35,836 nucleotides of DNA from an uncultured bacterium (lineage in GTDB: Bacteria; Bacillota; Clostridia; Lachnospirales; Lachnospiraceae): positions 1-35,836 of the forward strand of contig CAMWUN010000036.1 in assembly GCA_947177425.1 (NCBI GenBank). The letters are read 5' to 3'. The translations under genes were made by a program, and so were the position numbers. Shown here piece after piece: positions 11,276 through 27,258 of this stretch (position 1 is the stretch's first letter; each line of letters opens with the position of its first letter). A model generated the notes under the pieces. The model had not been told where the DNA came from. It saw only the letters and a program-made list of their open reading frames with translations, and did not search any database.

Positions 11276-11286
11276 GACTGCCCCTT

Positions 11287-13163: not shown

Positions 13164-13178
13164 TCTGGATTTCCTTTC

Positions 13179-13823
13179 TTAAAGTTGGTAAATAACCGCA
13201 TTACAGATTGCGGCAGCAATGTTGCTCCCGCCTTTTCTTCCCCGGTTTATGATGTATGGAATATCCGTTCCCAGTATCAGTTCCTTCGCCGCCTCCACGT
13301 TGACAAATCCCACCGGGGCACCAATGACAAAAGCAGGCTTATAACCCGTTTCCCTGAACAATTCATACAGTTTGATAAGCGCAGTAGGCGCATTACCGAT
13401 TGCAAAAATAACCGGCTTTTCAATGGCTGACGCTTTTTCCATACTGACAGCCGCCCGCGTCATATTCCTTTGCTTCGCCAGCAATGCAACCTCTTCATCC
13501 GCCATAAAACAGTGTGCCATGCCGCCAAATTTCGAAAGCGCCCGTTTATTGATCCCTGAAAGCGCCATATTGGTATCCGTTACAATATCAGCGCCTTTTC
13601 TGATCAAATCTTTAATGATTGTAACCGCTCCATTCGAGAAACAGAGTGTTTGGGCATAATCAAAATCTGCACTGGTATGTATGACCCGCTTTGTAATGAA
13701 TTCCTCCTCTGCCGGAATCTGAATGCCTCTTTGCACAAGTTCCTCGCAGATAATTTCAAAACTCCGCTTTTCAATCTCTCCCGGCTGCAAATATTCAATT
13801 TTATGTTGTTCTTTATTTTCCAT
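13179..13823 (-). CDS. cbiC: Cobalt-precorrin-8 methylmutase CbiC
   Basis: CbiC moves the methyl group from C11 to C12 to give cobyrinic acid. Visible family segments are RVIHTSADFDYAQTL, with the His expected near the active site, IVTDTNMALSGINKRALSKF, GGMAHCFMADEEVALLAK, IGNAPTALIKLYEL and FVIGAPVGFVNVEAAKELI. Choosing ATG 13823, with GGGGGATATT in front, gives 214 residues, the usual size. The longer frame to 13856 would add 11 residues lying inside the cobD gene. It overlaps the cobD stop by 11 bases and is followed at 16 bases by cbiD. Confidence 0.95.
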   Translation of the reverse strand: MENKEQHKIEYLQPGEIEKRSFEIICEELVQRGIQIPAEEEFITKRVIHTSADFDYAQTLCFSNGAVTIIKDLIRKGADIVTDTNMALSGINKRALSKFGGMAHCFMADEEVALLAKQRNMTRAAVSMEKASAIEKPVIFAIGNAPTALIKLYELFRETGYKPAFVIGAPVGFVNVEAAKELILGTDIPYIINRGRKGGSNIAAAICNAVIYQL

Positions 13824-14844
13824 CAATATCCCCCATTGCCTCCAGCAAAATTTCATTTTCTTTTCTTGTCTTAACGGCTATCCGGTAAAACCCCTTACCC
13901 AATCCTCTGAAATTTCTGCAGTCCCTGATCAAGATTCCTTTTTCCAATAGTTTTTCATACAAAGCTTCATCACTATAAAACATGATAAAGTTTGCGCAGG
14001 ACGGAAAAATCTGAAATCCTTTTTTCTTCAGCTCTTTCTCCAAAAGCTGCCTCTCTGTATTTATGTAGTTTTCCGTTTCCATGATGAACTCCCTCTGCCC
14101 TGCGCAGACACATCCGGCTTCCTGTGCAAAGCCTGACAGGTTCCATTCCGGAAGCTGCGCAGCTATTTTCATACGTGTTTCCGGATTGCTGCATATCAGA
14201 TATCCCAGCCGGACTCCGGGAATTGAAAAAATCTTTGTGAATGTCCTGATCAGTATCAGGCAGTCCAAAGTTTCTATTTCTGCAAGCATGGAAAACCGGA
14301 CGCCGCAAAATTCAATAAAACTTTCGTCCAGCACCACATAGATCCCTTTTTCCTGGCAATGCTGTAAAAGAGCCAGAAGCGCTTCCCTTCCCAAAAGATT
14401 TCCCACAGGATTGTTGGGATTGGCAAGAAAAAGAAGCTGCATATCTTCCGCCAGGACAGCATCAATATCCTCTCCCGGACAAAAGCTGTTTTCCCGCTTC
14501 ATCTCATAATAAATAATCTCTCCCCCTGCCGCTTTTGCCGCATATTCATATCCATAAAAGGACGGAACCGGTATCACAGTTTTCTCAGGCTTTATTCCAT
14601 GTACTACCGCCATAAACAGTTCTGAGGCTCCATTTCCAAACAGCAGGTATTCTTCCGGTACGTTAAGCTGACTGCTGACCGCTTTTTTCAGTTTTTCAGC
14701 TTTCATATCCGGGTAACTACTGCACCTTCCCACTGCCCCATGCAGTGCTGCCGCCACACTTTCCGGCATACCTAAAGGATTTACATTAACCGAAAAATCC
14801 AGCTTTACTTCATTCCGGTAAATATCTCCGCCATGAATTCCCAT
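13813..14844 (-). CDS. cobD: Threonine-phosphate decarboxylase CobD (PLP, class I aminotransferase fold)
   Basis: CobD makes (R)-1-amino-2-propanol phosphate from threonine phosphate for the nucleotide arm. The start GIHGGDIYRNEVKLDFSVNV followed by NPLG is typical of CobD and separates it from histidinol-phosphate aminotransferase, its closest relative. LLFGNGASELFMAV and LFLANPNNPVGNLLGREALL contact the cofactor. The PLP lysine is in IRTFTKIFSIPGVRLGY. ATG 14844 with AGAGGAAGCG upstream gives the family N-terminus; the ATG at 14889 adds 15 residues without similarity. The gene sits between cbiB (arm attachment) and cbiC, consistent with the role. The 142 bases before it hold no recognisable gene. 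Confidence 0.9.
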   Translation of the reverse strand: MGIHGGDIYRNEVKLDFSVNVNPLGMPESVAAALHGAVGRCSSYPDMKAEKLKKAVSSQLNVPEEYLLFGNGASELFMAVVHGIKPEKTVIPVPSFYGYEYAAKAAGGEIIYYEMKRENSFCPGEDIDAVLAEDMQLLFLANPNNPVGNLLGREALLALLQHCQEKGIYVVLDESFIEFCGVRFSMLAEIETLDCLILIRTFTKIFSIPGVRLGYLICSNPETRMKIAAQLPEWNLSGFAQEAGCVCAGQREFIMETENYINTERQLLEKELKKKGFQIFPSCANFIMFYSDEALYEKLLEKGILIRDCRNFRGLGKGFYRIAVKTRKENEILLEAMGDIDGK

Positions 14845-14986
14845 TTCCGCTTCCTCTATTCCAGTTCCGCATCTGCCCTCCGACACCATTTATGACAGAG
14901 ACATTTCCAGCCGCCAAAAACATGCGTCTGTAAATGCTCTGGGCATCGTCCGGGCTGATACTGTTTTTTTGCTTTTCAGTTCCACA

Positions 14987-15967
14987 TCAGGTGAATAACA
15001 ACAACATGACTGACAGACACAGCACTTCACACAACCATGCAGTGACATACATTAAATGGTTCGCCCGCTTAATATCTTCATATTCCACCTTGCGTAATGC
15101 ATCCCCGATATATGGTTTTTTAACGGTTTTACCAAAATAGCTGGCATCTCCCGCAAGCTTGATAGAAAGCGCACCGGCGCACACGGATTCTGTCTGCGCG
15201 GAGTTTGGACTTGCATGTTTTCTGCGGTCCCTCCTGTAAATTTTCCATGCGCCTTTCCCTGAAAAATCACTTCCGGACAAATAGGAGGCTGCTATCATCA
15301 GAAGGGCGCTGATCCTTGCCGGAAGAAAATTCACAAAATCGTCAAGTTTTGCCGCTGTTCTTCCAAAATACAGGTACTTTTCATTTTTATATCCAATCAT
15401 CGAATCCATTGTGTTTATTGCTTTATATAAGAATCCAAGTATCGGACCTCCAATTGCCAGATACAGCATCGGTGCAATCACTCCATCAGAGGTATTCTCC
15501 GCCACCGTTTCTATCGCCGCTTTCGCGACGTCTTCTTCGTCCAGATGTTCGGTATCTCTGCCCACGATCATGGAAACCGCAGTCCTTGCCTTTTCTAAAC
15601 TGCCTTTTCTTAGGCAATGATAAACCTTCATGCTCTCTACTCTCAGGCATTTCACCGCAAGGATCTGGTAAGTCATAAGGCTCTCTATTGCCATTCCCAC
15701 ATAAGGATGAATCCGGTATGCAGCAAATAAAAGAAAACTTGAGGCCATAATCACACTGGCAAGTACAATCAGTACCATGGCTACTCCCTGCCTAAGTTCA
15801 CTTCTGCTCTTATCTGTTTCATTTATTGCTATTTTCCTCCGAAGCCTCTGCTCTGTCCCAGAGATCAGCTTCCCAATCAGCCTGATTGGATGTGGGAGAA
15901 AGTAGGGATCCCCCAAAAGCTGATCCAGCAGAAAACCCATGAAAAAAGCAATCATATGGTATTTCAT
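14987..15967 (-). CDS. cbiB: Adenosylcobinamide-phosphate synthase CbiB
   Basis: CbiB is a membrane enzyme that attaches aminopropanol phosphate to cobyric acid. The N-terminus GFLLDQLLGDPYFLPHPIRL followed by IGKLI is the family signature. Further motifs are ETVAENTSDGVIAPMLYLAI, YKAINTMDSMIGYKNEKYL, and RDRRKHASPNSAQTESVCAG with GALSIKLAGDASYFG. Hydrophobic segments fit four or five membrane spans. It has 326 residues, the usual length. The start overlaps the stop of the cobC-like gene by four bases. It works directly with CobD (next gene), CobU and CobS. Confidence 0.96.
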   Translation of the reverse strand: MKYHMIAFFMGFLLDQLLGDPYFLPHPIRLIGKLISGTEQRLRRKIAINETDKSRSELRQGVAMVLIVLASVIMASSFLLFAAYRIHPYVGMAIESLMTYQILAVKCLRVESMKVYHCLRKGSLEKARTAVSMIVGRDTEHLDEEDVAKAAIETVAENTSDGVIAPMLYLAIGGPILGFLYKAINTMDSMIGYKNEKYLYFGRTAAKLDDFVNFLPARISALLMIAASYLSGSDFSGKGAWKIYRRDRRKHASPNSAQTESVCAGALSIKLAGDASYFGKTVKKPYIGDALRKVEYEDIKRANHLMYVTAWLCEVLCLSVMLLLFT

Positions 15968-16611
15968 ATTTCTCTTATTACCTCTATCCGCAAATTATTT
16001 TTTTCTGATATCGTTTCACTGTACCGGTTTTCCATTCTGCATAAATATCCTCTTCCGTTAGATACCTGATAATCAAAGTATGACTTTTTACTATACGTGC
16101 TGAGCAATGCCATGACCGTACCGCCATGAACCACCATCCCCACCCTCAAGGGAACGGAGGTTTCCAGTTCTGTCATCTTACGCAATTCACCACACATTCT
16201 AAGCAGTCCCTCTTTGCACCGTAAAATAAAATTTTCCCTGCTTTCCCCCTCCGGGAAAGCCAGTAAGCCGCCGCTGTCTATCCATGCCTGATACCGTGCG
16301 TCGTCTTTCAGTTCCTCATAATTCCTGTATTCAAATTGCCCGAAATCCATTTCCTCCCATTCCGGAATGATTGCCGGAGATAACTTTGGATATAGAATTT
16401 CAGCAGTTTCGATACATCTTTTCATGGGGCTGGTGAACAGATAATCCACATCCGGATAGATATTCCGCTTCTGATACGATAACAGCGCTTCCATTCCGTT
16501 TTTACTTAAGGGTTCGTCTGTTTTTCCCAAATATCGGTGCTCTTTATTAGCCTGTGTTTCCCCATGCCGTATTACAGCAAGCGTCACTTGATTTTCTGAC
16601 CAATCCCGCAT
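15964..16611 (-). CDS. cobC: Histidine phosphatase, CobC-like (alpha-ribazole phosphatase)
   Basis: The protein is a branch 1 histidine phosphatase: the catalytic R-H-G motif is in LAVIRHGETQANKEHRYLGK, followed by TDEPLSKNG. FTSPMKRCIETAEIL and WEEMDFGQFEYRNYEEL are also typical, and the second catalytic His is in RVGMVVHGGTVMALLS. In this position, between a CobU-like gene and cbiB, the expected role is removal of phosphate from alpha-ribazole phosphate or adenosylcobalamin phosphate. The fold is shared with phosphoglycerate mutases, so the role rests on context. It has 215 residues. The start lies in the end of the upstream gene (28-base overlap). Confidence 0.85.
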   Translation of the reverse strand: MRDWSENQVTLAVIRHGETQANKEHRYLGKTDEPLSKNGMEALLSYQKRNIYPDVDYLFTSPMKRCIETAEILYPKLSPAIIPEWEEMDFGQFEYRNYEELKDDARYQAWIDSGGLLAFPEGESRENFILRCKEGLLRMCGELRKMTELETSVPLRVGMVVHGGTVMALLSTYSKKSYFDYQVSNGRGYLCRMENRYSETISEKNNLRIEVIREI

Positions 16612-16967
16612 ATTACCCGCTCTACCTCCTCTGCCCTCTTCGCAAGCAAAATAAGAATCCTCCCCACACGTTCCCTGTATCCCCTTTCAAAGGCATTTAA
16701 CGGAATGATACCGTTTCCAATCTCATCGCTGATCAGGATACAATCCTCAAATTCATTCAAAAATGTCTCTATTTCCTTTTCCGGATATCCTCCATCCAAA
16801 ATACGGTTCTTAACCCAATGATGGAGATGATCAATTACCACCGTTTTCTGTTCTGATACTGTATGATCCGGCAAAATCCCGTCCCACACCTCGTCTTTCT
16901 GTAACCCGTATTTTTCCAGTACATACGAAAGCTTCCCCTGTGCATAACCGCCTATTACCAGTTTCAT
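16584..16967 (-). CDS. Short CobU-like (adenosylcobinamide kinase-related) protein
   Basis: This 127-residue protein has the outline of CobU but is clearly shortened. KLVIGGYAQGKLSYVLEKYG stands where the GGSGSGKS P-loop should be and lacks the usual serine after glycine-lysine. ILISDEIGNGIIPLNAFER corresponds to the V-S-N-E-V-G-x-G-I-V-P motif, and YRERVGRILILLAKRAEEVE followed by RVICGIG matches the C-terminal segment. The guanylylation-site histidine region (I-x-x-H-x-x-x-R) is missing. The intact CobU at 17893-18423 supplies the known activities, so this copy may have a structural, regulatory or different kinase role. TGGAGG lies six bases before ATG 16967, and the start overlaps the cobS stop by four bases. 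The family link is good; the function is uncertain. Confidence 0.75.
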   Translation of the reverse strand: MKLVIGGYAQGKLSYVLEKYGLQKDEVWDGILPDHTVSEQKTVVIDHLHHWVKNRILDGGYPEKEIETFLNEFEDCILISDEIGNGIIPLNAFERGYRERVGRILILLAKRAEEVERVICGIGQKIK

Positions 16968-17734
16968 CTTAACCTCCATAATGAAAGCATTGCTGCTATC
17001 ACAATCATGCAGATCTCACAAATCAGGACAAAATACCCTGCTGTATCGCCTGTGATACCGCCAAACTCTTTTTTGCTCCGGCAAAAATAATAGATAAGCG
17101 CTAATATAGCTGCTGCCACAACCACCAAACCTGCCGAAAGCGACCAGAAAAGCATGAATCCGATACATGCTGCGCTCTGTAAATACAGTGAACCTTTCAC
17201 AATCCTCTTCTGGGAACTGTCTGCAAAGAGGTAAAGCGTTCCGTCTTTTTTTGCCAGCGGAAAGGAAACTGCGCTGATGCCGCATAGACACCGAGAGAGG
17301 AAAAAGCTGCTGCATACGATTTTTAACATCACATTACTTTCTACTTCTGAAAACGCCCCCAGATAAACTAACCCATAGACCGCCAGCATAATAACCGCAA
17401 AGGCTCCAATATGGGAATCCTTCAAAATTTCCAGTTTTCTTTCCTTCGGGCTGTAGGAATGCAGGGCATCCATCGTATCCATAAAGCCATCCACATGAAT
17501 TCCCCCTGTAATGAAAAGCGGGATTGCCGCATCTACCGCAGTTCGACACAAAATACCGATATGATAGTAGTTACACAGTTCATTCCAGAAATAAATGCCT
17601 ACGCCAATCAGTGCCCCAACCCATGGGAAGAAGCAGAAAATGTACTTCATATCCTCTTCTTTCCACTTAAACTGAGGAACCGGAATTTTAGAATACATGG
17701 AAACTGCTATGAAAAAGGATTTGATTACTTGCAT
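16964..17734 (-). CDS. cobS: Cobalamin 5'-phosphate synthase CobS
   Basis: CobS joins adenosylcobinamide-GDP with alpha-ribazole (phosphate) in the membrane, the last assembly step. The catalytic acidic motif is ITGGIHVDGFMDTMDALHSY, preceded by a motif-poor first span FFIAVSMYSKIPVPQF that is typical of the family start, and followed by LKDSHIGAFAVIMLAVYGLV. About six hydrophobic segments are visible in 256 residues, the usual size. AGGAGAGAG precedes ATG 17734. It is separated from cobU by a 144-bp inverted-repeat element and overlaps the short CobU-like gene downstream. Confidence 0.95.
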   Translation of the reverse strand: MQVIKSFFIAVSMYSKIPVPQFKWKEEDMKYIFCFFPWVGALIGVGIYFWNELCNYYHIGILCRTAVDAAIPLFITGGIHVDGFMDTMDALHSYSPKERKLEILKDSHIGAFAVIMLAVYGLVYLGAFSEVESNVMLKIVCSSFFLSRCLCGISAVSFPLAKKDGTLYLFADSSQKRIVKGSLYLQSAACIGFMLFWSLSAGLVVVAAAILALIYYFCRSKKEFGGITGDTAGYFVLICEICMIVIAAMLSLWRLR

Positions 17735-17753
17735 TTCTCTCTCCTTACTGTTT

Positions 17754-17897
17754 TATAGTGAACGACAAAAATTTTTGTTTTTGGCGTTCACTGCGCCGAT
17801 TTTTGCTGCGTGTAAACGCAGATTCTACCTTGCAAAAATCGTGCGCATCCCCCGGAGGGATTATAGTGAAGGACAAATTCTTTTGTCGTTCACTATA
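17754..17897. repeat. 144-bp inverted-repeat element between cobU and cobS
   Basis: The ends tatagtgaacgacaaaa (17754-17770) and ttttgtcgttcactata (17881-17897) are perfect 17-bp reverse complements. Internally gatttttgc pairs with gcaaaaatc. The right end covers the last bases of cobU including its stop codon, and the element nearly fills the gap to cobS. The transcript would form a long hairpin at this junction. It encodes no protein. Confidence 0.8.
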
Positions 17898-18423
17898 TGA
17901 CTACCGGAATCCCGGCCACTACTTCCACTACCCGATCTGCCATAGCTGCCAGCCTTTGATTGATTTCTCCCATTGCATGAATATAGTCCATGGTCGTCTG
18001 GTCATAGACGATTCCGTCCTCAAATATGTTGTTGCTGACTACCACAAGATTTGTTGTATTTTCCTTTAGCTTTCTAAGGCCGCTGACAACGTTTTCTACC
18101 ACCTGCATTTCCAACCGGGGCCTCTCTCCTGCAAACATCTCATTGGCAGTCAGGTTTGAAATACACTCCAATAAAACCGTTTTCTTCCCTCCATCCATCT
18201 TTTCAAGAGATCTTCCTATTGACCTGGGTTGCTCAATGGTAAGAAAACCTTTTCCGCTTCTGAGTTTCCTATGCCTCTCAATTTTCTTTTGCCCTTCCTC
18301 GTCAAAAACCTGCATGGTCGCCAGATAATATTTTTTCATGTCTTCCTCAAAAACAGAGCAGACAGCTTCCTCCGCATAAGAAGATTTTCCGCTCCCGCTC
18401 CCTCCAATGACCAGAATCATCAT
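17893..18423 (-). CDS. cobU: Adenosylcobinamide kinase / adenosylcobinamide-phosphate guanylyltransferase CobU
   Basis: CobU phosphorylates adenosylcobinamide and then transfers GMP, preparing it for CobS. The P-loop is MILVIGGSGSGKSSYAEEAV at the start. The histidine of the guanylylated intermediate is expected in KKIERHRKLRSGKGFLTIEQ near residue 56. VLLECISNLTANEMF is Walker-B-like, LVVVSNNIFEDGIVYDQTT corresponds to the V-S-N-E-V-G region (here N-N-I-F), and the C-terminal segment is YIHAMGEINQRLAAMADRVV. At 177 residues it is full length. The frame extends to a TTG at 18432, but ATG 18423 (or the next codon) with AAAGG upstream is preferred. It follows cobT directly. Confidence 0.93.
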   Translation of the reverse strand: MMILVIGGSGSGKSSYAEEAVCSVFEEDMKKYYLATMQVFDEEGQKKIERHRKLRSGKGFLTIEQPRSIGRSLEKMDGGKKTVLLECISNLTANEMFAGERPRLEMQVVENVVSGLRKLKENTTNLVVVSNNIFEDGIVYDQTTMDYIHAMGEINQRLAAMADRVVEVVAGIPVVI

Positions 18424-18428
18424 CGCTA

Positions 18429-19484
18429 TCAATACCTTTCATATGGTTTTACCTGAATGTCCGAAAACAAAGTTCTTCCCCGATAAACACGAAGCGCCAT
18501 GTCAAGAAGCGAGAACATCATAACCGCGCCCGTTCCTTCTCCCAAAGCCAGACCTGCATCTATCACAGGCTCCAGGCGCAGCTCCCTCATCAGCCTTTCC
18601 ACTGCCGGCTCTTTCCCTTTATGGGAAGGAATCAAATACTGTACAGTTCCCGGCACAAGCCTTTCGGCAAGTAATGCCGCTGTCATACTGATTACCCCGT
18701 CCAGAACCACCGGTACATGGAAGATTCCACCGCCGATACAGACACCCGCAAGCCCTGCAATATCCAATCCTCCCACTGTTTCCAGTATCTTTAAGGGCTT
18801 TGCCTCATACAGCTTATATTTTTGGATTGCTTCTGTAATAATCTGTCTTTTATGGCATAGCTTCTCATCACAAAGCCCTGCGCCTCTTCCTGTCACTGCA
18901 TCCGCTTCGCATCCTAAGAGCGACGCTGTTACAGCGCTGCTTGTAGTGGTATTTCCAATTCCCATCTCACCCGTGGCAAGAATGTGATAGCCTTTCTGCT
19001 TACAATCTTCTACTATTTCTATCCCGGTAAAAATTGCACTCATTGCCTCCTCACTGGTCATAGCTGGAGTGATCCTGAAATTCCGGGTGCCGCAGCGGAT
19101 TTTTCGATTCAGTACCCCTGGTATCTGTTCCTTTGTACCTATTCCGATATCTACCGGAATCGTATCTGCCCCAATGGCTGCTGCCATTTTCCCCACTGAG
19201 GAAGCACCTGTTGCCATCTTTTTTGCAACTGCTGCCGTAACCTCCTGACCAGACTGACTGATACCTTCCTCCACAATGCCATTATCCGCACACATGATAA
19301 TGACCGCTTTTTTTGAGAGATCTATTTCCTCCGTACCCAAAATAGCGCCAATCTGTGCTATAAGAGTTTCGAATCTGCCCATTCCGTCAAGTGGCTTCGC
19401 TATCTGGTCCCAATTCTCCAATACTTTCTTATGTATTTCTTTATCTGGCTGCTCTATCAACAGCTTATCCAAATCTTTTTCCAC
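18429..19484 (-). CDS. cobT: Nicotinate-nucleotide-dimethylbenzimidazole phosphoribosyltransferase CobT
   Basis: CobT activates the lower-ligand base by making its alpha-ribotide. Diagnostic segments are KPLDGMGRFETLIAQIGAIL, VIIMCADNGIVEEGISQSGQ, ATGEMGIGNTTTSSAVTASL and YLIPSHKGKEPAVERL, with the catalytic Glu in ALGEGTGAVMMFSLLDMALR. I choose GTG 19484 as start because TGGAGGATTA precedes it closely. An ATG at 19505 adds seven residues and lies inside the upstream repeat. The resulting 351 residues is the family length. The ribosome binding site itself lies in the end of the repeat copy at 19491-19567. The base used as lower ligand cannot be told from the sequence. Confidence 0.95.
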   Translation of the reverse strand: MEKDLDKLLIEQPDKEIHKKVLENWDQIAKPLDGMGRFETLIAQIGAILGTEEIDLSKKAVIIMCADNGIVEEGISQSGQEVTAAVAKKMATGASSVGKMAAAIGADTIPVDIGIGTKEQIPGVLNRKIRCGTRNFRITPAMTSEEAMSAIFTGIEIVEDCKQKGYHILATGEMGIGNTTTSSAVTASLLGCEADAVTGRGAGLCDEKLCHKRQIITEAIQKYKLYEAKPLKILETVGGLDIAGLAGVCIGGGIFHVPVVLDGVISMTAALLAERLVPGTVQYLIPSHKGKEPAVERLMRELRLEPVIDAGLALGEGTGAVMMFSLLDMALRVYRGRTLFSDIQVKPYERY

Positions 19485-19490
19485 ACTAAT

Positions 19491-19567
19491 CCTCCATGCT
19501 TCCAACAGCCTTCAAATTTGGGCGTGAGCACAAATTTGTTGATTAAAAAATTTTAATTTTTCAATCT
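19491..19567. repeat. Intergenic hairpin repeat, copy A1 (cbiP-cobT junction)
   Basis: This 77-bp stretch is about 85% identical to 23081-23156 in the same operon. On either strand it ends in a stem built from gattaaaaaatt and aatttttcaatc, and contains two copies of the self-complementary caaatttg. It lies directly after the cbiP stop and carries the GGAGG used by cobT. It could be an RNA stabiliser, an attenuator or a small mobile repeat. Confidence 0.75.
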
Positions 19568-19568
19568 G

Positions 19569-21053
19569 TTACCTAATATGCGCTTCTCTGAGCATTCCAT
19601 AGATTTCCTCCATATTCAGATATTCCGATAAGATATCCGCCAGCTTATCATATTGCTTTTCTTTATAATCCCTGTAATCCATACAGTTTCCATTCTCTGT
19701 ACCAGTGAGGGTAATACCGAGGGTAATACCCTTTTTCTCAGCCAGTGTATTTACAAGGGCAGATGCAATCATGCCTCTGTCAAATATCCCATGGACATAA
19801 GTTCCGTACACATTTTTATTTTCTCCGGTCACAAATACCGTTCCTCTTTCCCCACTGCTGCCCATATGGATCTCATACCCTTCAAAATCAAGCCCTGCAA
19901 GTGCGGAAAAAATCCCATCCATCTGGTTTATGGTTCCATGTACCTGACGGCGTACCTTTTCACGATGCAGCCGGGTAGTAACCGACAGCAAACCCATCCC
20001 TCTCATGGTTCCTCCCATCTCCATCCCTTCCGGATCGGAAATTTCTTTCCCCAGCATCTGGTATCCCCCACAGATGCCGCAGACCGGTATTTTTTCCGCC
20101 AGCCTTTTCACCGCATCTGCCAGCCCGTTTTGGTACATCCATTCCAAATCATCCATGGTATTTTTACTGCCGGGCAGAAAGACCAGATCCGGATCTCCTA
20201 ATGCCCCCACAGATGTGACATAGCGGACAGATACCTCCGGTATCTGCTCAAACACATTGAAATCCGTAAAATTAGAGATTCTGGGATACCGGATGACCGC
20301 CAGGTCAACCTTCCCTTTTTCCTTTCTATCAAATCGTTCTGTCAGAGAATCCTCATCTTCCAGATCTATTTCCATATAAGGGACAATTCCGGTTACCGGA
20401 ATACCTCCCTTCTCTTCCAATATTTCAATCCCGGAATCAAGAAGCGATGCATCTCCCCTGAATTTATTGATGATAAGCCCTTTTACCCTTTCTTTTTCTT
20501 CTTTAGTCAGCAGGAGCAATGTTCCAAGGAGCTGTGCAAATACGCCGCCTCTGTCAATGTCTCCTACCAGAAGCACCGGTGCATCAACAATCTCTGCCAG
20601 TCCCATATTGACAATATCATTCTCACGCAGATTGATCTCCGCCGGGCTTCCCGCTCCCTCAATGACAATAATGTCTGCCATCTCATTAAGCCTGCGGAAT
20701 GCTTTTATAATATCCGGAACCAGCTTTCGTTTATAAACAAAATATTCCCTTGCACTCATATTTCCAAGGACTTTTCCGTTTACAATCACCTGCGATCCAG
20801 TATGGTTTGTAGGTTTTAACAAAATCGGATTCATGCAGACCAGCGGGCTAATCCCTGCTGCTTCTGCCTGCATGACCTGCGCTCTCCCCATTTCAAGCCC
20901 TTCTGCTGTCACAAAAGAATTGAGTGCCATATTTTGGGATTTAAAAGGAGCCACCCTGTATCCGTCCCGCTTTATAATTCTGCAAAGCCCCGCCACCAGA
21001 AGACTTTTTCCTGCACCGGACATTGTTCCCTGAACCATGATCACCTTTGCCAT
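19569..21053 (-). CDS. cbiP: Cobyric acid synthase CbiP (CobQ)
   Basis: CbiP performs the four remaining glutamine- and ATP-dependent amidations that give cobyric acid. The N-terminal ATP domain has [20 protein letters not shown] and [41 protein letters not shown] and [17 protein letters not shown] are hallmark motifs. The glutaminase domain has [16 protein letters not shown], the nucleophile Cys in [15 protein letters not shown], and the His in [13 protein letters not shown] 21053 with CGAGGATAAAT upstream gives 494 residues and the family N-terminus. The longer frame to 21116 adds 21 residues read from the intergenic hairpins and is unlikely. It is the first core pathway gene after the transport genes. 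Confidence 0.96.
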
Positions 21054-21068
21054 ATTTATCCTCGTTTC

Positions 21069-21149
21069 TGCACGTTTTTTTGTGCATAATGGAGTTTGTG
21101 GATGCCATGAAGACACAAACTCTGGATTGAAAATTGAAAATTTTCAATC
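21069..21149. repeat. Three consecutive hairpins between ATPase gene and cbiP
   Basis: Three small inverted repeats follow one another: tgcac/gtgca around a T-rich loop (21069-21086), gagtttgtg/cacaaactc (21092-21122) and gattgaaaatt/aattttcaatc (21125-21149). The last is the same kind of stem as in copies A1 and A2. The block starts right after the ATPase stop and ends before the cbiP ribosome binding site. Confidence 0.65.
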
Positions 21150-21941
21150 TTACCTCCATTCCATCATCTGCCTGATATAGGCAAGGAGTTTTGGATTTCC
21201 CGGAAAACTGCTTTCATTCATACCAAAAAGCTGCTCCATAAAGCCTGCTTTAAAAATTTCCTCCGGCGAGCCGAACCTTTCCGCATACTCTCCCCTAAGG
21301 CAAAGTATTTTGTCAGAAATAATCTTTGCAAGTTCTAATTCATGCAAAGACATAATAACCGTAAGTCCCTTTTTTTCTCTCATTTCCTGTAGTATAGATA
21401 AAAATTCCAGCTTATATCTGATATCCAGATAGGAAGTCGGCTCGTCTAATATCACAATTTCCGGCTCCTGACAGATTGCCCTTGCCAACATTACCCTTTG
21501 CCTTTGCCCGTCGCTGATCCTTTCAAATTCCTGTCCACAAATATCTGTAATATGCGTAAGTTCCATTACTTCATCAACAATACGCTCATCCTCCTTTGAC
21601 AGTACGCCAAACCAGCCTGTATAAGGGTATCTTCCCGTTGCCACCACGTCCCGGCAGCTTTTCATTTCTGCCCTTAGCTTCTCGGTAAATACCACTGACA
21701 TTTTTTTTGCCAGTTCTCCCGCTTTCATTTCTGCCAGATTATTTTCTTCCAAATATACCTTTCCGCCCAGCAGCCGCAGTTGCCCGGCAATGCTTTTTAA
21801 AACTGTGGATTTCCCTGCGCCATTCGGACCGATCAGCGTTAAGATTTCCCCTCTGGGCAGATTAATTTCCATGTCTTTGATCAGAGGTTCCCCATCATAC
21901 CCTACACACATTTTTTTTGCGGAAAAAAAGTAATTTTTCAT
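21150..21941 (-). CDS. btuD: ABC transporter ATPase, BtuD/FecE type
   Basis: This is the energy-coupling subunit of the B12/metal-chelate importer encoded with the next two genes. The Walker A is LTLIGPNGAGKSTVLKSIAG near residue 36. The signature is FERISDGQRQRVMLARAICQ, where S-D-G replaces the usual S-G-G. The Walker B is PEIVILDEPTSYLDIRYKLE, and the H-loop is VIMSLHELELAK. It has 263 residues. GGGATGG precedes ATG 21941. Because it lies in an operon under a cobalamin riboswitch, cobalamin or another corrinoid is the likely substrate; haem, cobalt or iron chelates are alternatives because the family shares its folds. The symbol reflects context, not a tested function. Confidence 0.88.
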   Translation of the reverse strand: MKNYFFSAKKMCVGYDGEPLIKDMEINLPRGEILTLIGPNGAGKSTVLKSIAGQLRLLGGKVYLEENNLAEMKAGELAKKMSVVFTEKLRAEMKSCRDVVATGRYPYTGWFGVLSKEDERIVDEVMELTHITDICGQEFERISDGQRQRVMLARAICQEPEIVILDEPTSYLDIRYKLEFLSILQEMREKKGLTVIMSLHELELAKIISDKILCLRGEYAERFGSPEEIFKAGFMEQLFGMNESSFPGNPKLLAYIRQMMEWR

Positions 21942-21993: not shown

Positions 21994-22053
21994 AGAGATG
22001 ACTTAGATATTCTTAGACGGCGTATTTTGACGTCTTAGAATATCTTCATCTCT
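21994..22053. repeat. Intergenic hairpin repeat, copy B1 (permease-ATPase junction)
   Basis: A 60-bp near-perfect palindrome that opens agagatgacttagat and closes atatcttcatctct, with the central loop near gcgtattttga. It begins at the permease stop codon (the stop is within the arm). A second copy lies at 24367-24426. The two copies differ at a few places in the stem by paired changes. A further hairpin, agaatcgct/agcgattct, lies beside it at 21971-21990. Confidence 0.8.
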
Positions 22054-23050
22054 TTGCTACCACCCATAACACCACAGGAGCTCCAAAGATAGCTGTTACC
22101 GTACTGATACTAAGTTCCGTGGGCGCTAACATCGTCCTGGCAAGCAGATCACAAAACAGGCAGAAAACACTCCCTCCCAGAAAACAGGACGGTATCATCC
22201 AGATGGGGTCCGCTGTATGAAGAAGCCTTTTGACCAAATGCGGTGCTGCAATTCCTACAAAGGAAATCGGGCCTGCAAATGCTACAATACACGCAGATAA
22301 AATACTGGAGAAAATCACGATACATACCCGAAGCAGACGTAAGTTAACACCTGCATTCCGGGCATAAGCGTCTCCCAGCCGGTAAGCATCAAGGGGTTTT
22401 GACATAAGAAAAACTGCAAGAAATGTCATGAAAACCACCACTGCCATAACCTTTACATTCTCCCAGGTCATTCCGGAAAAACTTCCCCTTGACCAGTTAT
22501 GCAGATTTACAATATCTGCATCATCTGCAAAAGTGACAACTAATTCCGTTATTGCAGAACAGATATAGCCAATCATAACGCCGCTTACCACCAGCATTGA
22601 CATACTGCTGACCCTGTTCGAGAGCAAAAGTACAAATCCCATGGAAAGCATAGCGCCGATAAATGCCCCAAGGATCATAGCTCCTGACGTTACCCTGATC
22701 GACCTGCCAAGAAGAAAAACCATGATAAGAGCAACCACCATTTTAGCACCGGAAGAAATCCCCAAAACAAACGGACCTGCAATAGGATTGTTAAAAAATG
22801 TCTGCAAAAGATATCCCGCAAGTGACAATGCTCCCCCCAGGATCAAAACCGCCACTGCCCTTGGAAACCTGATGTCCAACAAAATCCTTTTAAGGGTTTC
22901 ATCATCTCCGCTTCCGGCAAATATTTTTATCATATCAAGCAGCGTAATCCTGATACTCCCAATACAGATATTTAAAATAACAAAGACAGCAGTACATATT
23001 CCGAGTAAAAGAAACACTGTCATATATCTGTTCTTTTTGTTTTCCTGCAT
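22046..23050 (-). CDS. btuC: ABC transporter permease, BtuC/FecCD type
   Basis: The 334-residue integral membrane protein belongs to the FecCD family: RITLLDMIKIFAGS, LLDIRFPRAVAVLILGGALS, LAGYLLQTFFNNPIAGPFVL and LGISSGAKMVVAL near the start. The cytoplasmic coupling segment is AYRLGDAYARNAGVNLRLL near residue 220, and GPISFVGIAAPHLVKRLL is the conserved segment near residue 265. About nine or ten hydrophobic spans are seen. It forms the channel of the importer. ATG 23050 has AAAGG 13 bases upstream, a rather long spacing. Hairpin repeats lie on both sides (copy A2 upstream, B1 downstream). Confidence 0.9.
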   Translation of the reverse strand: MQENKKNRYMTVFLLLGICTAVFVILNICIGSIRITLLDMIKIFAGSGDDETLKRILLDIRFPRAVAVLILGGALSLAGYLLQTFFNNPIAGPFVLGISSGAKMVVALIMVFLLGRSIRVTSGAMILGAFIGAMLSMGFVLLLSNRVSSMSMLVVSGVMIGYICSAITELVVTFADDADIVNLHNWSRGSFSGMTWENVKVMAVVVFMTFLAVFLMSKPLDAYRLGDAYARNAGVNLRLLRVCIVIFSSILSACIVAFAGPISFVGIAAPHLVKRLLHTADPIWMIPSCFLGGSVFCLFCDLLARTMLAPTELSISTVTAIFGAPVVLWVVAKR

Positions 23051-23080: not shown

Positions 23081-23156
23081 CCTCCATGCTGTCAATAGCC
23101 CACAAATTTGGGCACAGCACAAATTTGTTGATTGAAAAATTTTAATTTTTCAATCT
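23081..23156. repeat. Intergenic hairpin repeat, copy A2 (binding protein-permease junction)
   Basis: The second copy of the 77-bp repeat seen at 19491-19567. It opens with cctccatgct, contains cacaaatttg twice, and ends in the perfect stem gattgaaaaatt / aatttttcaatc. It starts at the stop codon of the binding-protein gene on the minus strand. As in copy A1, GGAGG stands at its far end, but here it is 40 bases from the next start. Confidence 0.75.
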
Positions 23157-24356
23157 ATCTATATGAAAAAGATAATGCATATCTTCCTTCTCTCCCCGGA
23201 GCATCCCATGAATATCTTCTATCAGATAACCAATGGAGAGAGACTGCTGGTACATATCATTTGTCGTACACCAGACATTTCCTTCCTTAACCGCCTTAAA
23301 ATCCGCCAACACCTCACATTTATCAAGGAGTTCTTCCACACTGGAAATACCGCCGTCTATGGAACTGTTATAAATCAAAAAATCTGCATCTTTTGCCCCG
23401 GAATAAAACTCCTCTATCTGCATATTCATGGTAGAACGCCTTGTTTCCGAATCGCCCAGGTCTTCAAAAATATAGTTTCCGCCTGCAAGCTCTATCATCT
23501 TAGGAACATAATCCGATGACTGCCTTACCTGCACCAGCCCATTAGAGGTGATAAAAAAGAAAGCAACTGTCTTATCTGTTTTTTCATCTGTGCCCACTCT
23601 CTCAAGGATCGCCATTTGCTCCTCAAAAATCTTTTCCGCTTCCTTTTCCTTCCCGAGCAGTGCTCCGTAAAATTTAACCCACTCTACCCTGCCAAGCGGA
23701 TGGGACTCATAACTTGAATACTCTATCAAAACAGGAATTCCAAAATCATCCAGTTTTTCTATCACTTCGGGAGAATGGGAGATCATCATGTTTTCTATGG
23801 CAAGCGTACAATTTTTTGAAACAATCAGCTCGTAATCCGGCTTATTATATTTGCCTGCATAAAGGATATCTCCATTTGCCATAGCCTCCCTTGCCGCTTC
23901 AATATACCATCCATCTTCCTTTTGTCCTGAAAAGGTAATTGCCCCCAGCCCATCCAGTTCACTAAACGCATCCATGGCGGAAGAAGCAACCAGATAAATA
24001 TCCTTTACCGGACGTTTCAGTACTACTACTTTGCCATCCGGAATTTCTCCACCGGGAATTTCTTTCTCCAGATTCTGAGGCACTTCTTTATCTTCAGGTA
24101 CTATAAAAAAACGTGCGCCATCTATTGTTGTTGTCAGAAGGGTATATCCCCCTTCGTAATAATCCACTTTGAAATTTTCGGCATACCGGATTTCCATGCT
24201 TCTTTCATAAACCAGCTCTGCCTCCAATCCCGCATCCGCTTCTATTTCCTCCCTGCCCTCAGATAGGGAGGCAGAATCGGAAGATGGACTGCTGCAGCCA
24301 TAAAGCCACAGCAATCCAACCAAAAGAAAAATAACCGCCTTTTTTCTTCCTCTCAT
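23142..24356 (-). CDS. btuF: ABC transporter substrate-binding lipoprotein, BtuF/FepB type
   Basis: A lipoprotein signal is clear: a charged start, the hydrophobic stretch AVIFLLVGLLWLYGCSS, and the lipobox Cys near residue 21. After a Ser/Glu-rich spacer comes a type III binding-protein fold: VVVLKRPVKDIYLVASSAMD (lobe one start), GKYNKPDYELIVSKNCTLAI, IPVLIEYSSYESHPLGRVEW, VKFYGALLGKEKEAEKIFEE and MIELAGGNYIFEDLG. It captures the substrate on the cell surface for the permease and ATPase that follow. ATG 24356 is preferred over 24362 since GGAG lies six bases before it. The presence of a cobalamin riboswitch upstream points to corrinoids. Hairpin copy B2 lies just upstream and A2 overlaps the stop. 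Confidence 0.9.
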   Translation of the reverse strand: MRGRKKAVIFLLVGLLWLYGCSSPSSDSASLSEGREEIEADAGLEAELVYERSMEIRYAENFKVDYYEGGYTLLTTTIDGARFFIVPEDKEVPQNLEKEIPGGEIPDGKVVVLKRPVKDIYLVASSAMDAFSELDGLGAITFSGQKEDGWYIEAAREAMANGDILYAGKYNKPDYELIVSKNCTLAIENMMISHSPEVIEKLDDFGIPVLIEYSSYESHPLGRVEWVKFYGALLGKEKEAEKIFEEQMAILERVGTDEKTDKTVAFFFITSNGLVQVRQSSDYVPKMIELAGGNYIFEDLGDSETRRSTMNMQIEEFYSGAKDADFLIYNSSIDGGISSVEELLDKCEVLADFKAVKEGNVWCTTNDMYQQSLSIGYLIEDIHGMLRGEKEDMHYLFHIDRLKN

Positions 24357-24366
24357 CTTCATCTCC

Positions 24367-24429: not shown

Positions 24430-25422
24430 TCACTCATCAATTGTGTCTGAATGGAATGTGAGCGTATACTCCACTTCATGGGGTTTACTCATTGCCACAG
24501 TGTCCCCAATCACCACCACAGGTTCATCAAACATAAGAACAGGAACTTCAAAAACTGAATCCCCTTCCGTATTTACCGGAAGATACTTTTCCCCGTCCAC
24601 GATCATATAATCATAATTGGGGCTGCTCCACTTTAGTGTTGCTATCGCCTGTCCATCGGTTACTGTTATTGTCACGGGCGACAAAATTTTCGCTTTGCCG
24701 CTTCCACCCTCAAAGGTAATTTCCATGCTGTATGTGCCATCTTCCAAAGCATTCATGCTTTTAGCATTTATACTTTTAGCATTTATGCTTGTGGTATCCA
24801 CACTCCCGGTCTGTGCATCTTCCTCTGACAAAACCGGATCAGAAACGCTGACTTTATGGTCATACCATTTTCCCTTTGTCCCAATCAGAGCCAGGTCAAA
24901 TTCTTCCACAAGATAAGGAACCGGCACATCAAAACCATAGACTTCTTCCGTCAGGCCATCACTGTATGTAACTGTATCCTCTGTGGGCATAAGCAGCTCG
25001 GCCCCTTCTTTTTCTGCATCTTCCGCCAGTCCGGGATAAAGATTTATAATCTTTTTTGACCCCAGGGAAATATGGATCGTCATCTCCCCATTTTCTACAG
25101 TCAGTGTCCCTTTCCCCTCACAGGTTTCATTTACCCGGAACATACTGCTGTCTGTTGTAAAATCTGCGGTATAAATTCCGTCAGCAAGCTCTGTCACCGG
25201 CTGTTCAGATTCAGAACTTTCACTGCTCTCAAGATTTTCTTCTTTTGATGCTTCAGGTGTCGTCTCTGACACAGATTCCGCCACTTCTCCCTGTTCCTCT
25301 TCTGTAAGAGCTGCTGCGTCCATAACAGGATCAGTCTCCTGCACATCACCTTTACTGCCACAGCCTCCAAGCAACACAGCCAAAAGAACTATCACGGCAG
25401 CTGTCACATTTTTCTTCCTCAT
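24430..25422 (-). CDS. Lipoprotein with two NEAT-like tandem domains
   Basis: The signal RKKNVTAAVIVLLAVLLGGC ends in a lipobox Cys near residue 21. A Glu/Ser-rich spacer follows. Domain 1 (about residues 78-195) starts ELADGIYTADFTTDSSMF, continues GTLTVENGEMTIHISL and ends KGKWYDHKVSVSD. Domain 2 (about 224-325) starts ALEDGTYSMEITF, continues VTITVTDGQAIATLKW and SPNYDYMIVDGEKY and ends HEVEYTLTFH. The repeated plan (D-G-x-Y, then a T-V-x-x-G-x strand, then a Y/E-x-x-V/L strand end) resembles NEAT domains that bind haem, but I cannot confirm that. A linker of three INAKS-type repeats joins the domains. The ATG at 25422 has GGGAG nine bases before it and is better than 25449. Being between cbiK and the importer under the riboswitch, it may bind corrinoid or another tetrapyrrole at the surface. 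Confidence 0.75.
   Translation of the reverse strand: MRKKNVTAAVIVLLAVLLGGCGSKGDVQETDPVMDAAALTEEEQGEVAESVSETTPEASKEENLESSESSESEQPVTELADGIYTADFTTDSSMFRVNETCEGKGTLTVENGEMTIHISLGSKKIINLYPGLAEDAEKEGAELLMPTEDTVTYSDGLTEEVYGFDVPVPYLVEEFDLALIGTKGKWYDHKVSVSDPVLSEEDAQTGSVDTTSINAKSINAKSMNALEDGTYSMEITFEGGSGKAKILSPVTITVTDGQAIATLKWSSPNYDYMIVDGEKYLPVNTEGDSVFEVPVLMFDEPVVVIGDTVAMSKPHEVEYTLTFHSDTIDE
24749..24793. repeat. Three tandem 15-bp repeats in lipoprotein linker
   Basis: Three units, gcattcatgctttta, gcatttatactttta and gcatttatgcttgtg, stand in a row and encode the linker residues SINAKSINAKSMNA. Slippage could change the copy number without breaking the frame, altering spacing between the two domains. 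Confidence 0.85.
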
Positions 25423-25438
25423 AGTTTTCTGCTCCCGT

Positions 25439-26731
25439 CTATTTCTCACTCATTACTTTTGCTGTATGCTCTACATAAAGTTTCTGAATATCCTCAATCG
25501 ATCCAAGACCAATAATCTGAACCTCCACGCTGTCAAAACTGCCGGAAGCATTAAACATACTAAGCCATGAATCTTCCTCCTCGCCTGCCATATCATTGTT
25601 GGCATGATCGCCTGCTACCACCATAAGGGGACGTAAGATTACTTTTTTATAACCTGCCTGTGTCACAGCTTCTATTACTGCCTCACAGGATGTTTCCTCC
25701 GGTTCTCCTTCTACTGTTCCGATAAATGCATTGACACAACCGATATCCGTCAATTGTGTCTGCATCTGGCTGTAGCTCACCTTTGCTGCATGGGAAGTGC
25801 CATGTCCCAGAAATACGAACGATGCTCCGTCTTCCTGTGCTTCTGCCAGACTCTCATAACCTGCGTCCGCCACAGCTGCCGCAAGGATTGCCTTCGCTAC
25901 CACAGCCTTATCCTCATTAACAACAGATGCATCTGCACCAACCTCTCCAAGAAGCGGCTCTGCAACTTTCACTGTTTCAAACTGATCCAGATAATTCTCC
26001 AGAGTTTCCATCAGTTCATCATATTCCGCGCCATGCATAAGATGGGTAGGCTGTACCACTAAATTCTTCACTCCGTTTGTCACTGCGCGCTCCAATGCCT
26101 GATCCACATTGTCAATAAACTCTCCATCTCGCGCCTGTACATGGTTGATAATAATCTGCGCTGTAAATGCCCTTCTCACCGACCAGTCCGGATTTGCCGC
26201 CTGTATGGCATCTTCAATTCCCTTAATATCGTCCACACGGCTGTCATTAAAAGAAGTGCCAAAGCTGACTACCAGAATCTCATTTTCTCCAATATCATCC
26301 TGATTTCCTGGATCATCCTTAGAAGCGTCACCGGTATCCCTTCCAAAATAATCAGGATTCGCTTCTTCACCTTCCACAAGCTCCTTCTGGGCATCTGTAA
26401 GTGCGTCCCATGCCGCCTTTGCCTGTGCACACTGCTCATCAGTATTCTCCGTCCTCGTCTGCACATAAATTGCATCAATCAATGCAGCAACCTCGTCGGC
26501 AGCTGCCTGATCAGAATCTGCTCCGCCTTCCGCATCATCTGTATCAGCCTGATTCTCTGTTTGACTCTCATCATTCTCGTTTTCCGCCTGCGCCTCTGTA
26601 GCAGTCTCATTGTTCTCCTCTGTCTGTACGGTATTTCCGCCAGTTTCCGAAGTTCCTTTCGAGCAGCCTGTCAGTACCAGCGAACAAGCTGTAATCCCGA
26701 TTAATAATGCTGTAACTACTTTCTTTTTCAT
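25439..26731 (-). CDS. cbiK: CbiK-type sirohydrochlorin cobaltochelatase, predicted lipoprotein
   Basis: CbiK inserts cobalt into sirohydrochlorin, the entry step of the anaerobic pathway. Residues about 150-430 are the chelatase: ENEILVVSFGTSFNDSRVDD, the metal-site histidines in VQPTHLMHGAEYDELM (His230), LGHGTSHAAKVSYSQMQ (His310) and MVVAGDHANNDMAG (His376). Unlike cytosolic CbiK (about 260 residues), this one has 430: KKVVTALLIGITACSLVLTG is a lipoprotein signal with lipobox Cys23, followed by a Glu/Asn/Asp-rich spacer and a helical segment AAWDALTDAQKELVEGEE near residue 107. It should therefore be anchored outside the membrane. AGAGGAG precedes ATG 26731. It is the first gene after the cobalamin riboswitch. 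No other chelatase gene is visible in the window. Confidence 0.93.
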   Translation of the reverse strand: MKKKVVTALLIGITACSLVLTGCSKGTSETGGNTVQTEENNETATEAQAENENDESQTENQADTDDAEGGADSDQAAADEVAALIDAIYVQTRTENTDEQCAQAKAAWDALTDAQKELVEGEEANPDYFGRDTGDASKDDPGNQDDIGENEILVVSFGTSFNDSRVDDIKGIEDAIQAANPDWSVRRAFTAQIIINHVQARDGEFIDNVDQALERAVTNGVKNLVVQPTHLMHGAEYDELMETLENYLDQFETVKVAEPLLGEVGADASVVNEDKAVVAKAILAAAVADAGYESLAEAQEDGASFVFLGHGTSHAAKVSYSQMQTQLTDIGCVNAFIGTVEGEPEETSCEAVIEAVTQAGYKKVILRPLMVVAGDHANNDMAGEEEDSWLSMFNASGSFDSVEVQIIGLGSIEDIQKLYVEHTAKVMSEK

Positions 26732-26862
26732 CTTTTTGTCTCCTCTTTTCTCCCTGCATTGCCATAAGGGTATAATTTTTTAATCGAGCCGGGAAGATTT
26801 CTTCTCCTGCTCGCGTGCAGAGCGCGTGCTGCAAAACAGCAATTTACATTACGCACCCTTGC

Positions 26863-26912
26863 ACAAAAAAAATCCTTTGCCATAGTTCCAATTTAACTAC
26901 GGTAAAGGATTT
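26863..26912 (-). terminator. Intrinsic terminator of the cobalamin riboswitch
   Basis: On the minus strand aaatcctttaccgtagtt pairs with aactatggcaaaggattt (18-bp arms with two mismatches or wobbles) around a 7-base loop, followed directly by a run of T. It stands between the riboswitch aptamer and cbiK, so it is the expected off-switch. From here to ATG 26731 there are about 130 bases of further leader without a recognisable element. Confidence 0.9.
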
Positions 26913-27023
26913 GTACACAAAATAAGCCTGCCAGACATACCCAGGTAAGCAAAAACCTGTTATGCTTTTTGCAAGTTCAACGTACAACCAATTACTCGTG
27001 GCCTGAAACAAAGTTTCCGTACA

Positions 27024-27211
27024 ACATGCAGGCAGGTCTCCCGGCTTATAGATCATCACATCGGCCATCTTCCCAGGAATGAATTTGCTTATTTCCCAGT
27101 GATATATCGGCTTCTACTCCCTAATTACGGTGACGAGTTCGTACAGGATTTACACCTGTTTCCCTTTTCATCAAAACCAATGCAGAATACATTGTTTTGA
27201 CACCTGTATGT
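27024..27211 (-). promoter_or_regulatory. Cobalamin riboswitch aptamer
   Basis: The minus strand shows the class-defining blocks in order: acatacagg opening P1, gaaaagggaaacaggtg, aaatcctgtacg, cgtaattagggag, tcactgggaa, cctgggaaga, and aagccgggagacctgcc closing the core. P1 is completed by cctgcatgt (27032-27024), which pairs with the opening acatacagg. It is followed by an 18-bp terminator, so adenosylcobalamin binding should stop transcription of the whole 20-kb operon. It is the only cobalamin riboswitch seen in the window. Confidence 0.95.
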
Positions 27212-27230
27212 TATCTATTCAATTGTTCAA

Positions 27231-27258
27231 AGTATATCATATTTTTTTCTTATGTCAA
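27231..27258 (-). promoter_or_regulatory. Promoter of the cobalamin operon
   Basis: On the minus strand a perfect -35 TTGACA (27258-27253) and -10 TATACT (27236-27231) are 16 bases apart. This would start RNA about ten bases before the riboswitch P1 stem. It lies in the 61-base gap after the stop of the 27273 gene. Confidence 0.85.

Follow-up and report, generated by a model that had tools for sequence, protein, structure and literature searches.

A lipoprotein CbiK with a NEAT-domain partner and a FecCD-type importer in Lachnospiraceae: a candidate outer component of tetrapyrrole precursor capture

Introduction

The CbiK of Salmonella is a cytosolic chelatase without a signal, a linker or a NEAT domain, and uses sirohydrochlorin from the same cell. 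Desulfovibrio vulgaris has a CbiK in its Gram-negative periplasm, with haem between the subunits, and a second CbiK in the cytosol. FetB/IhtB of Porphyromonas gingivalis is tied to haem and to Mn-protoporphyrin in the accessible text of PMC13402209 and PMC13227078.

Tetrapyrrole precursor salvagers are corrin-ring makers that lack the first tetrapyrrole steps. In the accessible part of Shelton et al. 2018 (PMC6461909), the tested strains of this class needed ALA, no importer or surface chelatase is put forward for them, and how they obtain the ring is left open; P. gingivalis is given there as lacking the steps to precorrin-2. The accessible part of a review (PMC8123684) counts 0.6% of the PMC6461909 set as precorrin-2 salvagers.

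Here we describe a CbiK locus in a window (the whole stretch of DNA analysed, 35,836 nucleotides) that is one entire contig of a 4.19 Mb draft genome, 95.3% complete. A first-pass annotation had read the protein as a surface lipoprotein with an intact chelatase site, perhaps acting in cobalt or tetrapyrrole capture outside the cell.

Results and Discussion

Architecture of the CbiK lipoprotein

The protein and its parts are as follows:

25439..26731, minus strand: CbiK lipoprotein, 430 aa (ORF, PF06180, PDB matches, model)
26663..26731, minus strand: predicted signal peptide and lipobox, residues 1-23, with Cys23 (sequence)
26384..26530, minus strand: helical stalk, residues about 68-116 (alignment and AlphaFold model)
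25442..26290, minus strand: CbiK chelatase domain, residues about 148-430 (PF06180, PDB, fold, residue conservation)

The N-terminus, MKKKVVTALLIGITACSLVLTGC, holds a putative lipobox, LTGC, with Cys23 as its cysteine, and an acidic linker is present; as read from the letters, the lipoprotein assignment of the first-pass annotation therefore stands. Cys23 is invariant across an alignment of 46 rows, which were chosen for possession of a lipobox. The AlphaFold model has a mean pLDDT of 75 and a pTM of 0.72, with values below 50 for residues 12-67, the bulk of signal and linker. The segment AAWDALTDAQK, which had been singled out as helical, lies within modelled helices 68-87 and 97-110. Its helical nature is thus borne out by the prediction, and the description is revised to that of a stalk common to a clade of 48 loci, throughout which it is kept in the alignment and tree.

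The PF06180 profile matches residues 152-427 (E 2.2e-66, 224.3 bits against a gathering score of 26.2). Against NCBIfam NF047852, the sirohydrochlorin cobaltochelatase equivalog, the protein scores 176 bits where the cut-off is 400, and it is therefore not filed as that equivalog. The model has the bilobal CbiK fold, with Salmonella CbiK (1qgo) as the top structural match (E 2.3e-18), and the fold search also matches the periplasmic CbiK of D. vulgaris and FetB of P. gingivalis. By sequence, the first PDB match is FetB (2e-34). Over stalk and domain, 26 relatives are 61-82% identical to the window protein.

Residues aligned with His145, Glu175 and His207 of S. enterica CbiK are all present, numbered by counting on the sequence alignment of the window protein with the PDB entries, and the chelatase site is intact, as had been claimed. 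The equivalents of His145 and His207 occur in 151 of 151 CbiK rows and that of Glu175, which we take to be a metal-site residue of CbiK, in 150 of 151; all three are kept in each of the 70 exported rows. The active-site residues His145 and His207 are named in the accessible text of PMC7689651.

Control region and operon order

Upstream of the gene lie three elements, and the corrin genes close the operon:

27231..27258, minus strand: promoter-like site, TTGACA-16-TATACT (consensus match only, 11/12 positions)
27014..27222, minus strand: cobalamin riboswitch RF00174 (108.8 bits, full model 1-189)
26862..26914, minus strand: terminator-like hairpin with a U-run between riboswitch and CbiK (-18.5 kcal/mol, z -5.4)
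6040..21116, minus strand: corrin-ring and late B12 genes, read as CbiP, CobT, CobU, CobS, CobU-like, CobC-like, CbiB, CobD-like, CbiC, CbiD, CbiF, CbiG, CbiH, a CbiJ-E-T fusion and CbiA

Read 5' to 3', the order is promoter-like site, riboswitch, hairpin with U-run, CbiK, NEAT lipoprotein, substrate-binding protein (SBP), FecCD permease, ATPase and cbi/cob genes. CbiK is accordingly the first gene under the riboswitch, in agreement with the earlier reading, and the riboswitch score stands well above its gathering score of 31.5. For the hairpin (26914-26862), none of 200 shuffles is as good; it is absent from a separate pattern-scan listing. The promoter-like site is the best of 12 found, where shuffles are expected to give 14.4 at the looser threshold of the scan. 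Among the genes at 6040..21116, searches back CbiD, the tetrapyrrole (TP) methylases and CobU-like; the other names are presumed from motifs in the sequence.

Several neighbouring genes deserve mention in their own right. Between BtuR and the riboswitch, 27273-27965 (minus strand) encodes a 230-aa protein that matched nothing in Pfam or NCBIfam at E 0.01; genome G228 has a relative of it, likewise upstream of its exported CbiK. For the 131-aa product of 16584-16979 (minus), the match to CobU is confined to the C-terminal half of that family, and a full CobU-like gene is nearby at 17893-18432. At 2965-3402 (minus) there is only the C-terminal part of a nickel-insertion protein (PF01969, profile positions 255-374 of 375), which makes the fragment LarC-like; other bacteria have LarC genes that are split or frameshifted. 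A further siderophore-type set (SBP, ATPase, permease, permease) lies upstream of BtuR at 30091-32828 and 28769-29977 (minus), and the best NCBIfam match of its SBP is SstD, under the cut-off.

The NEAT partner and the ABC importer

The four genes downstream of CbiK are:

24430..25449, minus strand: lipoprotein with two NEAT-fold domains, residues 88-205 and 235-339 (weak PF05031, model, fold search)
23142..24362, minus strand: substrate-binding lipoprotein of the importer, PF01497 (Pfam)
22046..23050, minus strand: FecCD/BtuC-type permease, PF01032 (Pfam, NCBIfam)
21150..21941, minus strand: importer ABC ATPase (Pfam, NCBIfam)

As modelled, the partner of CbiK is a two-domain NEAT-fold lipoprotein, which may begin at an internal ATG, that of residue 10. 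PF05031 gives it 23.4 bits, under the gathering score of 32.8, and matches 23 of its 29 relatives at E 0.01 or better. In the model (pTM 0.43), pLDDT exceeds 90 in most of both domains. Foldseek aligns it with 3sik_A (TM 0.71 of target, rmsd 2.9) and with IsdH N2N3 at E 1.9e-8, but in the latter case with an rmsd of 18 over both domains. Only this fold search matched; a sequence-profile search found no PDB relative. A conserved WYDH motif (Trp195, Tyr196, Asp197, His198) is a candidate site for binding of haem or another tetrapyrrole.

The permease scores 207 bits against the NCBIfam BtuC model, under its cut-off of 334 bits, and the NCBIfam search gave no substrate name for the importer. No PDB relative of the importer SBP was found at 0.001.

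The host genome

The genome search found one CbiK, that of the window. No second or cytosolic CbiK and no CbiX came to light elsewhere in the genome, which answers a question raised by the first-pass annotation, and neither HemC nor HemB was found in this 95.3% complete assembly. Five places in the genome encode tetrapyrrole methylases, none of them CbiL by place and score. With CbiD present and both HemB and HemC absent, the host falls among the tetrapyrrole precursor salvagers; it does not count as having the complete corrin-ring pathway, since neither CbiL nor a cytosolic chelatase was found in it. A SirC-CobA fusion is encoded on another contig. It belongs to the CysG/Met8-type enzymes, which may insert cobalt in the cytosol. 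The fusion adjoins a second Peripla_BP_2/FecCD/ATPase set (L101, 6693-11077), perhaps a second tetrapyrrole route.

Distribution of exported CbiK in the order

PF06180 matches 161 of the 294 genomes sampled from the order; CbiK loci were taken in for 148 of these, and second, weaker copies were left out in G017, G030, G035, G080, G125, G136, G191 and G198. Export was called from sequence by a script and checked by eye, the fusion proteins of G262 and G270 being called cytosolic. A predicted export signal is present on the CbiK of 70 of the 294 genomes, with a lipobox in 62 and a Sec-type signal only in eight; one of these eight (L128 in G150) is a doubtful call. The exported CbiK of the window is therefore not an isolated case.

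Counted with domain-only NEAT profiles, the first NEAT domain (NEAT1) is fused to CbiK at 26 of the 70 exported loci and lies in the next gene at 36, giving 62 of 70. The remaining eight have no NEAT domain fused or adjacent, and six of them come from one family (f8). At cytosolic CbiK loci NEAT occurs once in 91; this case, L093 in G135, joins CbiK to NEAT1 and has no export signal that could be recognised. Within the clade of the window protein, a FecCD gene lies no more than 9 kb downstream at 41 of 48 loci, and in 13 of 13 larger neighbourhoods of cytosolic CbiK, taken as controls, neither NEAT nor FecCD was found. A riboswitch precedes the CbiK domain by 351-1083 nt in 48 of 51 genomes, the misses being G231, G035 and G112. 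In a scan of named genomes, 78 of the best 80 of 578 relatives (595 stretches) have NEAT, fused in 20 and near in 58; the closest named locus among these best 80 is that of Parablautia muri, 98% over the query. Cultured commensals that carry this type of locus include Parablautia muri (L176) and Eubacterium ramulus ATCC 29099 (L207).

On the CbiK tree, which leaves out ten divergent rows (L165-L172, L174, L175) and the duplicate L034, the exported proteins fall in one part of 79 rows, 70 of them exported (SH-aLRT 93, not starred). The clade of the window protein comprises 48 exported rows (SH-aLRT 100, starred). Export state requires six changes on this tree, against about 50 in shuffles.

Some genomes keep the importer and have no CbiK beside it. 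G219 has a cbi operon with a lipoprotein containing only the second NEAT domain (NEAT2), an SBP and FecCD, and has neither CbiK nor NEAT1 (L276, 4396-5043); G218 keeps the SBP-FecCD-ATPase-cbi order with neither CbiK nor NEAT there. CbiK is therefore dispensable in these two. G279 and G186 are also without CbiK, and in both the contig ends near the importer.

In seven genomes (loci L021, L090, L091, L109, L113, L118, L120), the cytosolic CbiK follows an ABC ATPase, which we read as CbiO-like, within one fusion protein, and at L096 it follows a CbiH-like methylase in the same way. As judged from such fusions and neighbours, the CbiK inside the cell is tied to metal import, because of the seven CbiO-like fusions, and the exported CbiK to putative tetrapyrrole-binder domains.

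CbiX was also searched for. Of the matches in 116 of the 294 genomes, only those in G031, G032, G064, G093 and G107 are below E 1e-19; the other matches listed are 7e-9 or weaker and, in the genomes compared, coincide with CbiK loci.

Association with corrin synthesis and with loss of early tetrapyrrole genes

Of the 70 genomes whose CbiK is exported, 69 have CbiD, as do 79 of the 224 others; conversely, an exported CbiK was seen in only one of the 146 genomes without CbiD. Presence was set at E 1e-57 or better for CbiD and at E 4e-32 or better for CbiL. G293, G274, G004, G056 and G128, with only a weaker CbiD-like match, were counted as lacking CbiD, and G071, G125 and G136, with CbiL-like matches near 1e-18, as lacking CbiL. 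The CbiD-like proteins of G293, G274, G004, G056 and G128 belong to a separate, divergent family (E about 1e-44), which stands alone in these five genomes and beside normal CbiD in some members of genus g2.

The classes compared below are drawn from CbiD genomes and leave out G035, G191, G130 and G220, whose CbiK loci were incompletely taken in; HemC was searched for in 80 chosen genomes of the 294. HemB is absent from 40 of 55 genomes with exported CbiK only and from 16 of 77 with a cytosolic CbiK, alone or additional. The corresponding figures are 30 of 41 searched against 3 of 33 for HemC, and 24 of 55 against 4 of 77 for CbiL. Fisher tests in which relatedness is not removed give p values of 4e-9 (HemB), 2e-8 (HemC) and 1e-7 (CbiL), and by genus, again with relatedness not removed, 1e-5 for HemB and 4e-5 for CbiL. 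The association between export and gene loss is clustered by descent. The CbiK tree offers only four independent pairs with support, so that the tree test cannot reach significance; on average, 2.3 of these pairs combine export with loss of HemB, and none shows the opposite.

HemB is kept in 15 of the 55 exported-only genomes, 12 of them NEAT-linked, and the system is therefore not confined to precursor auxotrophs; HemB is also missing in 13 of 65 cytosolic-only genomes. A pair from one genus illustrates the pattern: G255, with an exported NEAT fusion, lacks HemB, HemC and CbiL, and G287, whose CbiK is cytosolic and fused to an ABC ATPase, has all three.

Proposed role and alternative readings

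We propose, with about even confidence, that the membrane-tethered, outward-facing CbiK is the outer part of a riboswitch-controlled system for capture of a tetrapyrrole precursor of the corrin ring. When B12 is low, the riboswitch would open and the operon would be switched on. At the cell surface, the stalked CbiK would then bind an isobacteriochlorin without metal (sirohydrochlorin, Factor III or a related ring) and insert Co(II) into it; the cobalt product would pass to NEAT1, from there to NEAT2 and the SBP, and so into the FecCD importer, and the cbi enzymes inside would finish the corrin. We infer the surface binding, the cobalt insertion and the transfer to the importer. Cobalt-starved B12 makers release Factors I-III. 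Since 24 of the 55 exported-only genomes have no CbiL, cobalt-sirohydrochlorin alone would be unusable there, and Factor III, a later ring or an unknown replacement for CbiL would be needed. Regarding the earlier suggestion of capture outside the cell, such a role is likely, and cobalt capture as such is less likely, because the importer is of the FecCD type and not a cobalt ECF transporter.

A ring precursor is favoured as the target over a finished corrinoid or haem. The main argument is the restriction to CbiD genomes described above, as a system for haem or for finished corrinoids would be expected in ring-less genomes too. Use of the locus as a haem or porphyrin station like FetB/IhtB, with the surface CbiK binding haem or porphyrin and perhaps removing or swapping its metal, and with NEAT and importer taking up haem or iron, is quite unlikely. 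The matches point that way: the closest PDB sequence is the haem-binding FetB (2e-34), the NEAT folds of the window match haem-binding NEAT domains, and the accessible texts ascribe to FetB of P. gingivalis a Mn chelatase activity on protoporphyrin (PMC13402209) and present IhtB as a putative ferrochelatase or reverse ferrochelatase (PMC13227078). The cobalamin riboswitch at 48 of 51 loci, the continuation of the operon into cbi genes and the single exported CbiK among 146 genomes without CbiD all argue against it. In addition, the position aligned with His96 of D. vulgaris CbiK (counted on the alignment), which we take to be the candidate haem ligand, is Asp in 58 of the 70 exported rows. An accessory role in uptake of B12 or cobinamide, in which CbiK would be a binding relay and a chelatase no longer, is unlikely for the same reason of distribution: the exported proteins are nearly restricted to corrin-ring makers (CbiD in 69 of 70), which need B12 uptake least, and their chelatase residues are unchanged in 70 of 70 rows. 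Such a relay would nevertheless suit the riboswitch control, the BtuC-like permease (207 bits, under the 334-bit cut-off) and the importers kept without CbiK in G218 and G219, and riboswitch-controlled surface B12 lipoproteins are reported from Bacteroides in the accessible text of PMC12751083.

Two further readings are very unlikely. Ring makers might send out sirohydrochlorin that they have made themselves, charge it with cobalt on the cell surface and re-import it, as the 15 of 55 exported-only genomes that keep HemB, and in which neither CbiX nor a cytosolic CbiK was found, could suggest; the 40 without HemB, the host genome included, do not fit such a loop, and a CysG-type enzyme could chelate inside. 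Alternatively, ring synthesis may be decaying and non-functional, with the exported CbiK a leftover or a repurposed surface protein. The missing HemB, HemC and CbiL of the host genome are in keeping with decay, but the cbi genes are intact, as is CbiK, and conservation across many genera is strong (for CbiK, 61-82% identity in the 26 relatives).

Many gut bacteria carry corrin-ring genes without the first steps, and the gene set described here is a concrete candidate for how the missing ring enters such cells. If precursor capture is the role of the locus, a metal-insertion step of B12 synthesis would take place at the cell surface, genomes that look broken would be explained, and cross-feeding of B12 intermediates would be indicated. 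A bolder extension is possible, though we hold it as doubtful: anaerobic B12 synthesis would have its first committed step outside the cell, ring-less Lachnospiraceae would trade precursors, load them with cobalt by the surface CbiK and import them by NEAT-FecCD, and cells without CbiL would join the pathway at cobalt-factor III or beyond, with B12 being built by the community, intermediate by intermediate. For annotation in general, a CbiK match should not be scored as cytosolic cobalt insertion before the N-terminus has been inspected.

Comparison with known systems

The host resembles the precursor salvagers of PMC6461909, mostly Firmicutes in the accessible part of that paper, in being a corrin-ring maker without the first tetrapyrrole steps; 87.1% of the class keep CbiL/CobI according to the same text, whereas the window host is without CbiL. 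The cytosolic CbiK of Salmonella (PDB 1qgo) has the same domain fold (TM 0.89 of target) and the same His145, Glu175 and His207. The periplasmic CbiK of D. vulgaris (PDB 2xvx, 2xvz) is, like that of the window, exported with a chelatase site, but no second CbiK was found in the host genome, and the aligned position of the presumed haem ligand is not His.

The NEAT haem relays IsdH, IsdX1 and Hbp2 share with the window system the NEAT fold and the principle of a surface relay to an ABC importer; unlike those, the window partner is under the PF05031 cut-off. We know of no riboswitch control and no CbiK partner in Isd systems. A search of the open-access literature, outside which most subscription papers lie, turned up no paper that links CbiK with NEAT domains or describes a lipoprotein CbiK in Lachnospiraceae.

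FetB/IhtB of P. gingivalis (PDB 9b86) shares the exported CbiK fold with the window protein (TM 0.84 of target) and, like the window host, its organism cannot make the tetrapyrrole ring. By analogy, an organism that lacks the precorrin-2 steps and yet has an exported CbiK is a suggestive parallel. Unlike FetB, the CbiK described here is the lipoprotein of a monoderm, with a helical stalk, a NEAT partner or fusion, a FecCD importer, a cobalamin riboswitch and a corrin operon. Exported CbiK proteins are thus already known from FetB and D. vulgaris, and it is the setting, with NEAT domains, an importer and a precursor auxotroph, that appears to be new.
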